This document shows, in pieces, positions 268-15,390 of a DNA stretch of 64,000 nt (its first letter is position 1; the number at the start of each line of letters is the position of its first letter). The notes beneath the pieces are model-generated. The model was not told where the DNA came from. It saw only the letters and a program-made list of their open reading frames with translations, and made no database searches. A program made the translations under genes and the position numbers. The DNA is from Hansfordia pulvinata (taxonomy: Eukaryota; Ascomycota; Sordariomycetes; Xylariales): assembly GCA_006538405.1 (NCBI GenBank), contig BJKQ01000008.1, positions 372,001 through 436,000 on the forward strand, written 5' to 3'.

Positions 268-3200
268 TTAGTGGGAGCAGACGGCCCTGGCCACGTGGCC
301 CGTCTCACCCTCCTTGGGGGCGTCAAAGTACTGGCGGCGCTGCTGGTGCTTCTGGTAGGAGGGGAACATGACGCAGAAGAACTCGGACCAGCCGCCCAGG
401 CGGCAGCGGACGAGCTCGTACTTCTCCGTGTCGCGCACGGCGGCCTCGTAGGTCGCGAGGTCGGCGCACGTCAGCGTGACGTAGTTGCCGCCCGTCTCCC
501 CCTCGGCGAATCGGCGGACGAAGCGCTGCAGGTCCTCGAGCGGGAAGTCCTCGGGGATGTTCATGTCGACGGGCGCCGCGCTGGACACGCCGATCTCGAC
601 GGCCGAGTTCTTGTAGGTGCGCAGGGCGTCGTAGATGTTGCGGTGGGACGGCGCCGCCGCCAGGTCCTGCGGGGCCTGCACCGGCGAGCAGTCCGACGCG
701 ATGGGCTCGCCGCTCCGGCGCCCGTCGGCCGACGCCCCGATCCCTTCGCCCGCGCCCACGTAGCCCTCGAACGTGCCCACGCCCGGCTCGATCATCCACT
801 CGAACCCGGGCCCGTAGGCGTCGTAGACGCGCTGCAAGCCCTCCTTGAGGAAGGGCGCCGGCTGGCGGATGGCGTCGACCGACATGCGGACGCAGTTCTC
901 GATGAGCCAGACGCCCAGGTCGTTGAGCTCGTCGCCGCCGTCGCCGCTGCCCCACTTGGGCAGCGCCAGCGCCTCCTGCCGCAGCTCCTGGTACCGCACC
1001 GCCTTCTCGGCCGCGTTGGCCTCGCCCAGCGTGCTGTCCTGGAACGGCTCGCACATGTTGCCGCCCCAGTCGCAGAGCAGGCACATGACCAGCTCCTTGA
1101 GGGTGCAGCGCGCCGTCGCCGGGTCGAAGACGAGCTTCTTGATCGCGTACAGCGAGCTGATGGTGTTGGCGACGCCGACAAACATTTGGGAGACTTTTGG
1201 GGAGTTGATGTCAGTAACGTGTCAAGGAAAGGAGTGGAGATAAAAAGAAAAAAGAGAGAGAGAACGAAAGGGGAGGAAGAAAAAGGGGAGAAAAAATAAG
1301 GGGGAAAAAAAAAAAAGGGGGGGGGGGGGGGGGTATAATGAGAAAAGACATACTAATGTGGAATTTGGCGCCGCCGTTGGTCAGGTCGCGGCCGGACTCG
1401 GTGCAGCCGCCCAGCAGGGGCGACAGCAGGGGGGAGGGGCAGACCTTGGCCAGGTTGCCGTAGTCGTCAAACATCTGCTTGTAGCACTTGAGGACCAGCC
1501 ACCAGACGTGCTCGAGGAAGATCTCCTTGAGGTGTTCAAAGTCGCGGATGTCCTTGGCCAGCGGGGAGCGGAAGGTCTGCTTGAGGCCGTTGAGGTAGAT
1601 GGGGCCCGCGGCGCGCATGGTGGCGCCCTGGTTGAGGGCCTGCTCGAGGGCGGGCATCAGGTCGACGTTGTTGAAGACGAACTCGCTGGCGCCGCCCAGC
1701 AGGGGCTCGTAGCAGCCGTCGGCGGCGTAGTCGCGCGAGGCGGCGCGGGTGACGCTCTCGCCGGAGCGGAACAGGCCCTCGCACAGCTTGTCGTCGTTGT
1801 AGATGGTGGGCTGGGCGCCGCCGGCCAGGATGGACTTGGCGGCCTCGTCGACGTACTTCTGGTCGATGCCGCGGAAGACGCGCAGGGACAGGGAGGGGGC
1901 GTTGACGGGGATGCGGCGGGCGGCCTTGAGGCACAGCATGGTGACGGCGTTGCAGCCGTCCTCGGGGACCGGCGAGTCGGTGGCCTTGTAGCCGCCGACG
2001 GTGATCTGCTGGACCCACTGGTTGAGGGCGCCGGAGCGCGGGGCGTTGCCGCCGCGGCCGCTGACGGCGCCGGTGCCGTAGGTCATGTGGTCGTGGATGA
2101 AGGCGCGGTTGACAAAGGCGTTCTCGCCGATCTTGATGAAGAGGCAGTCGATGACCTCCTGGGCCTCGTCGAGGGTGATGGCCCCCCGGGCGATGTCGGC
2201 GTCGAGCAGGGGGCCGACGATCTGGTCGAGGCGGCCGATGGAGGTCAGCTCGCCGACGAGGTGCAGGCAGGTGTGGAGCGAGTAGACGAGCTGGACGGCG
2301 TCGTGGAAGGAGGCCGGGGCCTCGGTGGCGAGGCGGTCGAGGCGGTCGGCGACGGCGTGCATGTTGCGCTGGTCGTGGTCCATGTAGGCGTTGCTGTGCT
2401 CGCGGCGGCACAGGTCGGCCCAGTTGCGCAGGTACTCCTGGCAGCCGCGCAGCGAGTACTGCGCGGACCGGAAGAACTCGGCGCGCTCGGCGTCGCCCCG
2501 GCCCGACGCGTCGCTCTCGGAGGCGGCCAGCTCGGCGATCATGCGGCCCAGGCCCTTGGTGACGGGCGTCTGCAGGTCCGGGATGATGTGGCCCATGGCG
2601 GACCACTCGTGCAGGGCGGCCTTGAGGAAGGCGGCCAGGGCCTCGTCGTCGTCGAGGTAGGGGACGACCTCCTTGCCGCGGCCGAGGGTGAAGTCGGGCA
2701 CGATGCCGACGATGAGCTCCTTGCAGTTGATGCGCAGCAGGCCGTTCTTGCGGGCGACGGCGGACTTGCGGGACGACAGCAGGTAGCTCAGGGTGGCGAG
2801 GTCGGCGAGGCCCTTGCGCTCGGGGACCGAGGCGGGCAGCGCCGGCTGCTGGACGAGCTCGAGCATGTCGCGCAGGTGCGGCAGCGGGGGAAGACCTGGT
2901 TCTGCGTCCAGCCGTCGCGCCAGTGGGTGAAGGCCTTGGACATGAGGCTGAGGACGCGGGCCGAGGGCGGGTCGCCGCCGACGTAGCCGCCCTCGGCCAT
3001 GACCTGCATGTAGGTGATGGAGTTGTAGAAGAGCCAGGGGTTGCGCGGGTTCGAGACCTCCCAGTGCGGCTCGACGTAGACGCCGATGCCGCCGCCGACG
3101 CCCGTGATGCCCAGCTCGGGCGCCGACGGCACGTACCAGTAGTTGCCGCCCACGCCCTGCACAAAGTCCATCAGGCGGTCGATGGGCCGCGCCGGGTTCT

Positions 3201-4164
3201 TGCCGATCATGTTGTCGAGTATGTCCTCGAAGCGCTGCTGCTCGTTGCAGAAGCCGACAAACATGACGCCCTTTTCGCGGCTGGGCTTGCCCTTGACCGC
3301 GTCGGAGGACTGCTGCTGGGGAACATCCTCCTCTTCATCATCGCACTCGACGTTGTCATCATGAACGTGATTCTCGCTCTTGTTGTTGTTGTTGTTGTTG
3401 TTGTTGTTCTTCTTCTTCTTGTACGTGATAAAGGGCAGCGACTGGCGCAGGATCTTGCGCTGGTCGTGGTTCTTGTCGAGGACGTGGGCGCGGTGGATGT
3501 GGGCGCGGTCGGCGTGCTGCGACAGGACGGTGCCGTCGGGGCGGCGGCCGATGACGGCGTCGAGCGCGTGGCCCGACTGCGCCGACAGGTCGCCCCAGTC
3601 GAACTCGAACTTCTGCGTCAGCCCAAACGTCGCGCCGCTCGCCAGCTCGAAGCCGTCGCCCAGGATGTCCTCGGTCAGCCGGATCGGGTCGTTGGGGTTG
3701 GTGATGTGGTCCTTGTACCGGCCCCCGAACACGCGCCCGTCGCTGCGCTTGCCCAGCGCCAGCGCCTCGATCTTGGACGCGTGCGCCTCGATCGCCGGCA
3801 GCACCCGCTGCACCAGCGCGTCTGCCGCCGCAATGTCCGGCGCCTTGACGTACAGCAGCATCTCGCCCCCGCTCGCGCTGACGTTGGTGCCCTCGCTCAG
3901 GTGCTTCTTCGAGATGCAGAACTTCTTGCCCCCCGTCCAGTGCGTCCACAGGTCCGGCGCGAACCCCGCCACGAACCCGCAGTCGTCCCCGCACTCCGCC
4001 GTGATGTGCCGGTCCAGCGCCTGCACCGCCGACACCAGCGCCGAGTGCGTCGCCTTGTCCTGGTTCTTCAGGTGGATCGTCAGGATCTTGCCAAACATCG
4101 GCCTCATCAGCAGCCCACGCTGCGCCGACGCCAGGTGCGGGTTGCTCTTCGAGTTCAACGACAT
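268..4164 (-). CDS. DyP-type peroxidase fused to glycyl radical enzyme (one apparent frameshift)
   Basis: Two enzymes appear in one transcription unit. The start is ATG at 4164-4162 (AAG ATG T context). Exon 1 is 4164-1354, exon 2 is 1193-268 (stop TAA), and the intron is 1353-1194. Allowing one missing C in the run at 2886-2890, the product is about 1245 aa. Residues 1-400 match DyP peroxidases of the YfeX type: Asp152 in GRYKDH, IGR at 205-207, likely axial His222 in RAHIHR, distal Arg240 in LRQSLPF, then GVMFVGF and GGNYWYVPS. Residues ~434-1245 are a full glycyl radical enzyme: CKELIVG, GHIIPDLQ, NAPSLSLR, thiyl Cys818 and Glu820 in DGCYEP, NGGAKF, IKKLVF, and glycyl Gly1205 in CRLGGWS, 40 residues from the C terminus. 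The Cys-x-Glu pattern is that of GRE dehydratases and lyases; pyruvate formate-lyase has two adjacent cysteines. Substrate is unknown. The DyP half would reduce peroxides using heme. No activating radical-SAM enzyme is visible in the window. Confidence 0.83.
1194..1353 (-). other. Intron of the DyP-GRE gene
   Basis: This 160-base phase-1 intron has donor GTATGT (1353-1348) and acceptor AAAAG (1194). A branch-like ACTGAC lies about 15 bases upstream of the acceptor. Joining the exons restores the conserved GRE run GGAKF...VGVAN...IKKLVF without a gap. The intron holds a homopolymer block on the + strand of about 12 A followed by 17 G (1305-1333), which could cause assembly slippage. Confidence 0.85.
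2886..2890 (-). other. Frameshift point in a C5 run
   Basis: Upstream of this run (sense strand) the DyP frame has G or C at every third codon position. Downstream that property moves to the next frame, which reads PLPHLRDMLELV and runs into the GRE domain. One extra C joins both frames. An alternative is a 47-base GTCTTC...CCAG intron that also restores the frame, but its donor is poor and no branch site is visible. Confidence 0.75.
3378..3426 (-). repeat. AAC/AAG microsatellite coding Lys/Asn run
   Basis: On the + strand this reads as (TTG/TTC)n repeats. In the gene it encodes four Lys and nine Asn at residues ~249-261. An acidic, Gln-containing stretch follows up to about residue 295. It sits between the conserved DyP blocks RQSLPF and GVMFVGF, where YfeX-type enzymes have a short loop. 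It keeps the frame, so it is probably a surface insertion. Confidence 0.75.
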
Positions 4165-13446: not shown

Positions 13447-15032
13447 TCAGTGACCCTCACGCACGGAAACCTTGTTCACACACTTCTGCCAGTCAAGCCA
13501 CCGGAGGTAGGTGCACTCGATAGCAGCAATGATAACCATGCCGCTCCCGAGGCCCGTCCAGACGCCGTTAAGCGCGAAACCGGCCGACCCCAGCTCCAGC
13601 CACACGGCCAAGGGCACGGCAGCAAGATAGTTGACCGAGATGACGACCCAGGCGGCGACGGCTTGCCTGCCTAGGCCCCTCAGCATGCCGTTGGTGAAGC
13701 AGATGAAAGAGTCGATGACCTGGTACAGAGCGAGAGCCAGGAAGGTCTTCTCAGCCAAAGCCCAGACCTCGGGATCCTGGGAGAAGAAGCGCGGCAAGCT
13801 CGCCCTAGCCAAGTAGATAAAGAAGCCGTCGATGGCGCCGACAGCAATGAAGACCACGGCGTACATGAGACAGGCGCGGCGAGCCGTCTTCTTCAAGCCG
13901 GCGCCGATCAGATTGCCGATGCGGGTGCTGATGCCGACGCTGATGGAGAAGGGGATGTGCCAGGACACGACCGAGATGGTCGTAAGGAGTGTCTGGGCGG
14001 CGAGGTGGGCGGTGCTGAGGTAGGACGTGGTGAAGGCGACAATCTGGAAAGAGCCCCATTCTGCCAGGTTGACGACGGCCCCTGCCAGGGACAGCTTCGC
14101 CATGGGCCGCCACTTGGAGATGGTGACGGCTTGGGCTGAGAAGCCACCCCAGCAACCATGCGACCAGCGGCCCATTGGGGACACAATGTAGGCCAGAAGC
14201 AGGGCAGGTCGCAGGTCGTTGGTCAGGGCGACGCCGAGGGCGGCGCCCGACAGACCCATGCCCAGCTTAAAGGCGAAGAACCAGCTCAGCAGCACGTTGA
14301 TGGGGTTGTGATGATCAGGACGACCATGGCTGGGCGGAAGCTGCCCTGGGCCTGTAAGAAGCGCTTGAGGGCCTCAAAGTAGGCGTAGCCAGGCATTCCA
14401 ATGATGCTCCAGCGCAAGAAGTTGCCGGCCATGGCGGGGAGATGTTGCTGCTTGACGACAAGGGACAGCAGCATGGGCGCCGTGGCCCACATGAGACCGA
14501 TGGGGACGGCGATGATGGTCATGAAGACCATCATGCACTGCACGTGCACGCCGACACCCGTGAGGTTGCCCGAGCCGTAGGCCTGCGAGCACAGCGTGTC
14601 GAGGGCGGTGGCCATGCCTTCGAACAAGGCCCAGCCGAGGATGTTCATGGTGGTCATGCCGATACTGGCAGCGGCGAGGTCGTCGGTGCTCAGGTGGCCG
14701 GCGGTGAAGGTGACGATAATGCACCACGCGTACTGCAGCAGATATGTGCAGATGAGGGGGAGCGAGTACTTGACGAGGATCCAGAGTTCGGAGCGGAAGA
14801 GGCCGGTTGTGTCGTCGCCGTCGATGAGGTCGTTGGCATAGTACCCCTCATCGTCGTCGTCGCTGTGGTCGGAGGAGGAATTCGAGCGGGAGGAGCAGCC
14901 GTTCTCGAGCAGCGGCGACGTCTCATCGGACGGGCCCTTGCGGTCAGCGACATGCTTCTGCTTCTGCTGGCGCCGCTGCTGCTTCTTGGCGTCCATGATG
15001 GAGACGTCGGACTTGGTCTTGGGAGAATCCAT
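13447..15032 (-). CDS. MATE-family efflux transporter (one apparent frameshift)
   Basis: A multi-antimicrobial extrusion transporter, a membrane antiporter that typically exports organic cations, drugs or metabolites using H+ or Na+ gradients. The start is ATG at 15032-15030 and the stop TGA at 13449-13447. With one C restored in the run at 14302-14305 the protein is about 528 aa. Residues 1-80 are a hydrophilic, acidic cytosolic tail (SSSDHSDDDDEG). About twelve hydrophobic segments follow. Characteristic stretches are AAASIGMTTMNILGWALFEG with TLCSQAYG in the N half, then TTPINVLLSWFF (split by the frameshift), NLAEWGSFQIVAF and GISTRIGNLIGAGL in the C half. MATE proteins of ascomycetes usually have this size and acidic N-tail. 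No biosynthetic cluster flanks it, so the substrate is unknown. Confidence 0.9.
14302..14305 (-). other. Frameshift point in a C4 run of the MATE gene
   Basis: The upstream frame reads IITTPSTCC and stops; the next frame reads NPINVLLSWFF and continues the transporter. One extra C gives the expected TTPINVLLSW. This is the same kind of break as in the DyP-GRE gene. Confidence 0.8.
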
Positions 15033-15095
15033 CACGTAGGATGTGAAAGAAGGAGGAAGTGGGAGAGTCGGGGTTGGTTGTGCGACAGACACGCA

Positions 15096-15150
15096 GGCAG
15101 AGACGGACGGATAGACGGACGGAAGGAACGACAGACGGACGGACGAATAG
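15096..15150. repeat. GACGGACG-type microsatellite
   Basis: Repeats of CAGACGGACGG lie just upstream of the MATE start codon, in its presumed 5' leader (CCGTCCGTCTG in the sense direction). Confidence 0.6.
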
Positions 15151-15390
15151 ACCGGCGAGCGGGCGGGCGTGGAGGAAGGAGCGACTCTCTTTTGGGTTTC
15201 GTAGTTCTTTCCACCTCTTGTGACGACAAGATCGCACTGAGGTACCTTACTTGTTGCGAGCAGGTAGGTATTCAGTCTGGAACACTCTGTCTCCTTCGAT
15301 GGACGGCCCTAGAATGGAACAGGAGGAACGCCGCCAACCCAATAACATCACCACCCGGCAGCCCGTCGCGATATCGGACGGGCGCTGTGG

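Follow-up and report, generated by a model that had tools for sequence, protein, structure and literature searches.

A DyP-type peroxidase fused to a glycyl radical enzyme in Hansfordia pulvinata, possibly a lyase started by peroxide

Gene organization and reading of the locus

The window analyzed here, 64,000 nucleotides of the fungus Hansfordia pulvinata (assembly GCA_006538405.1, contig BJKQ01000008.1, positions 372,001 to 436,000), carries a gene that joins a DyP-type heme peroxidase to a glycyl radical enzyme (GRE). The gene is read on the minus strand, from 4164 to 268, and its translation gives the DyP half first and the GRE half after it (Table 1). An earlier note, made from the sequence of the window, had picked out six motif blocks, and all were found in the translations: LRQSLPF, GVMFVGF and GGNYWYVPS in the DyP half, and GHIIPDLQ, GCYEP and CRLGGWS in the GRE half. 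The single intron that it placed within the GRE part was recovered as well; the two GRE exons join in frame once a GT..AG intron of 160 nucleotides (nt) is removed at 1353..1194. The coordinates of this intron, and those of the low-complexity insert described below, come from a hand count on the sequence. Inside the intron, long C/T homopolymer runs, which are slip-prone in sequencing, occupy positions 1248-1340.

The two halves had been taken as one unit, with no room for a promoter between them. The latter point holds because the full-length relatives are single proteins, mostly of about 1,160-1,250 amino acids (aa). The former fits the same relatives, but the note overlooked that the halves here lie in different frames. 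A stop at 2788 ends the DyP frame, position 3334 is where the GRE frame opens, and the switch falls near 2890. In the aligned set, both fungal and bacterial relatives have an uninterrupted P-x-LPHL-like block at this position. Because they read through it, we take the switch to be a frame break in this sequence, either an assembly slip or a real lesion, and not a gene boundary. A 47-nt GT..AG pair at the switch, counted by eye, could likewise bring the frames into register, but it was not favored since it deletes the P-x-LPHL block that bacteria encode.

Across the junction, the mean column identity of the alignment was 0.71 at 306-375, fell to a looser 0.51 at 376-400 and rose to 0.75 at 401-470; outside the junction it was 0.55 at 1-140 and 0.70-0.79 elsewhere. 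Two separate genes are ruled out by the conserved junction and by the full-length relatives, which are single proteins. Bacterial contamination is ruled out by the GT..AG intron, by the 2.8-Mb contig of a 46.8-Mb genome on which the gene lies, and by its placement inside the fungal clade of the tree described below.

Table 1. Parts of the fusion gene in the window of Hansfordia pulvinata
Feature	Position	Strand	Evidence
Peroxidase (DyP-type, heme) half, with its ATG at 4164	2890..4164	-	translation; PF20628, TIGR01413; residue alignment
Low-complexity insert in the DyP half, about 45 aa	3295..3429	-	translation compared with relatives
Switch between the DyP and GRE frames, in and beside a short C run	2880..2900	-	open reading frames, sequence, relatives
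GRE exon 1, with the putative thiyl-radical Cys and the Glu in DGCYEP	1354..2890	-	PF02901 (1.2e-74); PDB relatives
Intron, 160 nt, GTATGT..CCCAAAAG	1194..1353	-	sequence; in-frame joining of the GRE exons
GRE exon 2, with the putative glycyl-radical loop RCRLGGW; stop codon 270-268	268..1193	-	PF02901 (1.1e-13); alignment to RVAGY of solved GREs

The peroxidase half

The earlier note proposed a search of the product with a DyP profile, and the DyP half was over cut-off for PF20628 (Dyp_perox_C; E 1.6e-17, 64.2 bits, cut-off 20). With TIGR01413 the DyP half scored 95.1 bits (4.8e-27), slightly below the cut-off of 100.5. Three residues are present in the window, the Asp of GGRYKDH, the His of DRAHIHRAH and the Arg of ILRQSLPF, which we take to be the distal Asp, the proximal His and the distal Arg, respectively. 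Their conservation was followed in two alignments, one of 36 rows, which is a chosen subset of the relatives, and one of 44 rows, likewise chosen, which includes more distant bacteria, the window gene and an unfused GRE from Hymenobacter. D145, H213 and R231 (Andreprevotia numbering) were invariant in 36/36 rows of the first. In the second, the His and the Arg were found in all 43 fused rows and the Asp in 40 of the 43, with Glu in the other three.

The low-complexity insert consists of a Lys/Asn run, an acidic stretch and a Gln/Ser part. It is open in frame and was not seen in the aligned relatives, and it may be either an intron or a real insert. A perfect trinucleotide repeat of 9.7 copies (3380-3408) encodes the Asn run within it.

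Among solved proteins, those that match the DyP half best are bacterial B-type or encapsulin-associated DyPs (DypB), with which it shares the DyP profile. It differs from them in being fused to a GRE and in its Asp motif, which reads GGRYxD(H/G/S) in most rows of the family.

The glycyl radical enzyme half

The pyruvate formate-lyase (PFL)-like profile PF02901 matched both exons, with 252.6 bits for exon 1 (1.2e-74) and 51.1 bits for exon 2 (1.1e-13), at a cut-off of 24.3. The GRE profiles anticipated for the product were therefore found in part, since the glycine radical profile PF01228 gave no match to it. Cys759, Glu761 and Gly1143 (Andreprevotia numbering) were invariant in 36/36 rows; together with Trp1144 they were kept in 44/44 rows of the wider alignment, which includes the window gene and the unfused Hymenobacter GRE and spans fungi and three bacterial phyla. 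Presumably the Cys carries the thiyl radical and the Gly the glycyl radical, with the Glu as a residue of the active site. The VRMGGW loop of the family aligns with VRVAGY of solved GREs; therefore the radical Gly is kept and the Tyr that follows it is replaced by Trp.

The best solved relatives of this half in the PDB are choline trimethylamine (TMA)-lyase, glycerol dehydratase and diol dehydratase. Because of these relatives and of the GCxEP motif, we assign it from its sequence to the eliminase/dehydratase type of GRE and not to the true pyruvate formate-lyases. The latter have an adjacent Cys-Cys pair, and the motif here is GCYEP. The exon-1 piece scored 21.3 bits with TIGR01255, the PFL equivalog, against 136.2 bits with PFL2-3 and 109.9 and 98.3 bits with two lyase/dehydratase models, all of these scores being under cut-off as the query is only a piece; the PFL equivalog was not the best of them.

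The family shares the GCxEP Cys/Glu motif, the glycyl loop and the PF02901 core with choline TMA-lyase and with the B12-independent glycerol and diol dehydratases, which are CxE glycyl radical eliminases. It differs from these enzymes in additional sequence ahead of the Cys loop, in the Trp that replaces Tyr next to the radical Gly, and in that no activase gene was seen alongside it at 9 bacterial loci. Where glycerol dehydratase has His in an aligned G-H-S segment, Glu is found in the family, except for three rows with Asp or Thr.

Distribution and origin of the fusion

A search over the whole length scored 8000 candidates and found 232 relatives at E<=0.001. The best of these reached 1648 bits, with 59% identity across 99% of the query; therefore the architecture is not a product of chance. 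The names of the relatives were taken from the best 120 of the 232, and many rows are unnamed. Among the matches listed, fungal carriers of the fusion belong to Xylariales, Chaetomium, Fusarium, Cryphonectria and Lindgomyces, and there are also lichen metagenome-assembled genomes, while the bacterial carriers listed are Andreprevotia, Collimonas, Chromobacterium, Janthinobacterium, Massilia and Chloroflexota. The bacterial carriers thus include Proteobacteria as well as Chloroflexota. The same two-domain order, which the earlier note proposed to look for in other ascomycetes, is present in many Sordariomycetes, and full-length relatives show it at identities up to the value given above.

A scan of genome contigs yielded 7 bacterial loci, including those of Paracidovorax, Azohydromonas and Pseudomonas cichorii. 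In one bacterial order, 4 of 399 genomes matched at E<=1e-100, and two of these (G005 and G002) were carriers found before. A third, G242, was matched through nothing but a C-terminal piece with one internal TGA (L041, C9:91738-92667). An Asticcacaulis plasmid has a longer form of the fusion, of 1326 aa.

A tree was built with FastTree from 43 chosen rows, and we put its root on the Asticcacaulis and G212 rows. All the fungal rows (27/27), the window gene among them, fall in one clade with a support of 0.992, and this clade joins one of 10 proteobacterial rows at a node of 0.995. The window gene groups with seven rows (support 1.0), which we take to be Xylariales. The fusion gene is likely of bacterial origin, as judged from these sequences. 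Because the fungal clade joins the proteobacterial one, the tree agrees with such an origin, as PMC5041501 holds.

Comparison with the published fusion

The earlier note took this architecture, to its knowledge, to be undescribed, and in this it was mistaken. PMC5041501 (2016) describes the same fusion of an N-terminal DyP with a C-terminal PFL, named 'DyP-PFL' (Ccochdyprx), in Chaetomium cochliodes, and the fusion is found in bacteria too. The paper cites an earlier notice of the fusion (Strittmatter 2014), proposes that it is of bacterial origin and leaves its purpose open. It also reports that H2O2 raised the dyprx transcript of Chaetomium 3-fold and that peroxyacetic acid raised it 18.5-fold. 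Our literature search found no description of a DyP-GRE fusion besides this article.

Like the window gene, Ccochdyprx, as described there, has an N-terminal B-type DyP and a C-terminal PFL/GRE in an ascomycete, and a bacterial origin was proposed for it. The relatives listed here include two further proteins from Chaetomium (P0035 and P0037), and the C. cochliodes sequence lies outside the comparison. The window gene is set apart from the DyP-PFL fusion relatives by the frame switch at the junction, by the low-complexity insert in the DyP half and by its glycyl loop, RCRLGGW in place of the RVRMGGW of most relatives. The architecture is already published, and what deserves to be followed is that some carriers apparently lack an activase.

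Neighboring genes in bacteria

GREs require a radical S-adenosylmethionine (SAM) activase, which in bacteria is usually encoded adjacent to the enzyme. At the 7 genome loci, none of the CxxxCxxC matches in long frames was radical-SAM-like when judged by eye, with only 1.5 kb available on one side of locus L003. Around the Asticcacaulis and Hymenobacter genes no radical-SAM gene is annotated in the plasmid gene tables, which are incomplete. There was no conserved neighbor either: the 10 neighboring open reading frames chosen from 6/7 genome loci belong to different families, save two unlike aminotransferase-fold proteins, and the annotated neighbors differ between the Asticcacaulis and Hymenobacter loci. 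On the Asticcacaulis plasmid (L036, 9484-15582) the fusion comes after a SUMF1/EgtB-type nonheme iron enzyme and a DUF2278 gene.

On the Hymenobacter plasmid (L037, 11590-14929), a GRE that has the GGW motif is unfused and split over two overlapping frames, and a DyP gene follows 11 nt on. This DyP gene appears to be cut short and of another subtype. The unfused pair also speaks for a functional connection of GRE and DyP.

Candidate activases in carrier genomes

Activases were searched in 9 draft bacterial genomes (G001-G007, G212 and G242). TIGR02494 gave weak matches in 6/7 genomes and passed its cut-off in 0/7. There was no TIGR02493 match in G003, only PqqE in G004, and PqqE, QueE and MoaA in G007, and NrdD was absent from all three; thus no known GRE activase was found in these three drafts with TIGR02494, TIGR02493 and the naming models. 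In each of G003-G007 the fusion is the only PF02901 enzyme, and in G003, G004 and G007 it is the only GRE detected. NrdG2, the activase of class III ribonucleotide reductase (NrdD), was among the lower matches in G005, G006, G212 and G242, and NrdD was found in 5/9 genomes (G001, G005, G006, G212 and G242). Weaker matches of the TIGR02493 search in G001, G002, G005, G006 and G212 (24-37 bits) were left without names. Of 14 control genomes, 3 exceeded the cut-off of PF02901, and the counts for TIGR02494 and for TIGR02493 were 3 as well; the three genomes were identified for PF02901 only. The GRE of the fusion seems orphaned of its activase, which apparently has not been reported before.

In the fungus, PF02901 matched this gene alone. 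PF01228 and TIGR02494 gave no candidates at all in the genome; the empty PF01228 search says little because this profile misses the very gene studied here. Seven matches to PF04055 were found in the genome, read without regard to introns, and these correspond to MoaA, BioB, LipA, a viperin-like protein, a TYW1-like protein, Elp3 and a protein designated L035. The viperin-like protein (L032, 1237-2610) is over cut-off for NF038283 and matches TIGR04278 with an E-value of 2.6e-100, but below cut-off. L035, which we take to be PflX-like (PflX/COG1313), is the only candidate found for the GRE-activating radical-SAM enzyme that the earlier note suggested seeking elsewhere in the genome; its matches to the NrdG2 and PFLA models are weak.

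Ustulina deusta, Poronia punctata, Bombardia bombarda and Neoarthrinium moseri are among the matches listed for both the fusion and L035. Homologues of L035 are also listed in Trichoderma, Colletotrichum and Apiospora, genera that are not named among the fusion matches listed. An L035-like protein was found in 0/7 bacterial carriers. This result has weight because, in a control, the same query finds homologues in 4/398 genomes of the carriers' phylum, 3 of them strong. L035 as a universal partner is ruled out for the bacteria tested.

Proposed function and alternatives

We tentatively propose a bifunctional enzyme, in which a B-like DyP is joined to a GRE of the eliminase/dehydratase type (CxE active site), with a conserved junction between the two, and the heme half would start the radical of the GRE half. 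The best reading of the data is that a peroxide-fed heme domain may start, or at least guard, the radical chemistry of the half fused to it. In the peroxidase half, which presumably binds heme, a ferryl/porphyrin-radical state would arise on reaction with H2O2 or a peracid. The oxidizing equivalent would then travel through the protein towards the GRE half. There a glycyl or cysteine thiyl radical would be formed and the turnover of some small substrate would start. The peroxidase would stand in for the radical-SAM activase, and the GRE could be started in peroxide-exposed aerobic organisms. The more specific version, in which the fused heme peroxidase replaces the activase and acts perhaps via the family-specific Trp beside the radical Gly, is rather unlikely as it stands.

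A peroxide-driven start is suggested because the heme residues and the GRE site are intact, the junction is largely conserved, the transcript is induced by peroxide and peracid, the hosts are, as we assume, mostly aerobic in habit, and an activase was not found in several carriers. This last observation, in bacteria, leans toward the peroxidase 'supplying' the radical half, one of the roles suggested by the earlier note. Prostaglandin H synthase offers no more than an analogy: there a protein radical generated at the heme peroxidase site sets off the reaction at another site, but the protein is unrelated and its radical is tyrosyl, not glycyl.

Several points weigh against a peroxide-driven start. 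We know of no GRE that is started by a heme peroxidase. PF01228 gave no match in the window proteins or in the fusion proteins of Andreprevotia, Paracidovorax and Asticcacaulis. TIGR02493 was over cut-off in 3/9 bacterial genomes, both Andreprevotia (G001 and G002) and G242, and these activases could act in trans; in G001 and G002 a second PF02901 enzyme adjoins the TIGR02493 activase. In G005, G006 and G212 the only activase found was NrdG2, with its partner NrdD present. TIGR02494 is a weak yardstick, as its cut-off misses the real PFL activases of both Andreprevotia genomes, and for this reason the census rests on TIGR02493. The bacterial genomes are drafts, and only three were without every candidate; these three have 49 radical-SAM matches (12, 21 and 16 in G003, G004 and G007), of which 5 were named by a model. 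For fungi, L035 remains a candidate activase in trans because several fusion carriers are in both match lists, and its homologues in many ascomycetes carry the source name 'pyruvate formate lyase activating enzyme' (best 120 of 7994). A putative PFL activase is also named for Chaetomium in PMC5041501, and L035 may be the same gene.

One alternative, although itself doubtful, is nearly as likely as a start by peroxide: a radical-SAM protein, ordinary or cryptic, would activate the GRE in trans, while the DyP fused to it would merely remove peroxide near the radical site. The PflX-like L035, the fungal carriers that have both genes, the putative activase of Chaetomium, the PFL activases in a third of the bacterial genomes and the induction by peroxide are all consistent with it. 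However, L035-like proteins are missing from the seven bacterial carriers while the control query succeeds in their phylum, and L035 homologues also occur in fungi whose genera are not named among the fusion matches listed. Furthermore, G003, G004 and G007 are without an activase over cut-off or by model name, and a peroxidase does not remove O2, which is the main poison of glycyl radicals.

The two halves could instead be consecutive catalysts, the GRE product (an aldehyde or alkene, for example) being oxidized by the DyP, or a DyP product feeding the GRE. Fusions and adjacent genes often link consecutive steps, and a related GRE and a DyP are neighbors in Hymenobacter though unfused. This arrangement is nevertheless improbable, as no shared third gene was seen at the bacterial loci and the missing activase would be left unexplained. 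Least probable is a GRE half that no longer forms a radical and serves the DyP as a scaffold or binding domain, which would fit the Trp in place of Tyr after the Gly, the activase not found and the failure of the window gene and three bacterial fusions to reach PF01228, but a dead scaffold would not need the Cys, Glu and Gly kept in 44/44 rows from fungi and three bacterial phyla, and the unfused Hymenobacter relative just reaches PF01228 (22.7 vs 22.2 bits).

Other features of the window

Two adjacent frames on the minus strand (13450-15308) match MatE (MATE transporter) and are likely parts of one gene.

Significance

In textbooks, GREs appear as anaerobic catalysts that depend on radical-SAM activases for their start. 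If the peroxide-driven start proposed here is true, the fusion would provide a second means of starting GRE chemistry, and such lyases would have gained a route for the oxygen era. The missing activase makes the purpose of the fusion directly testable.

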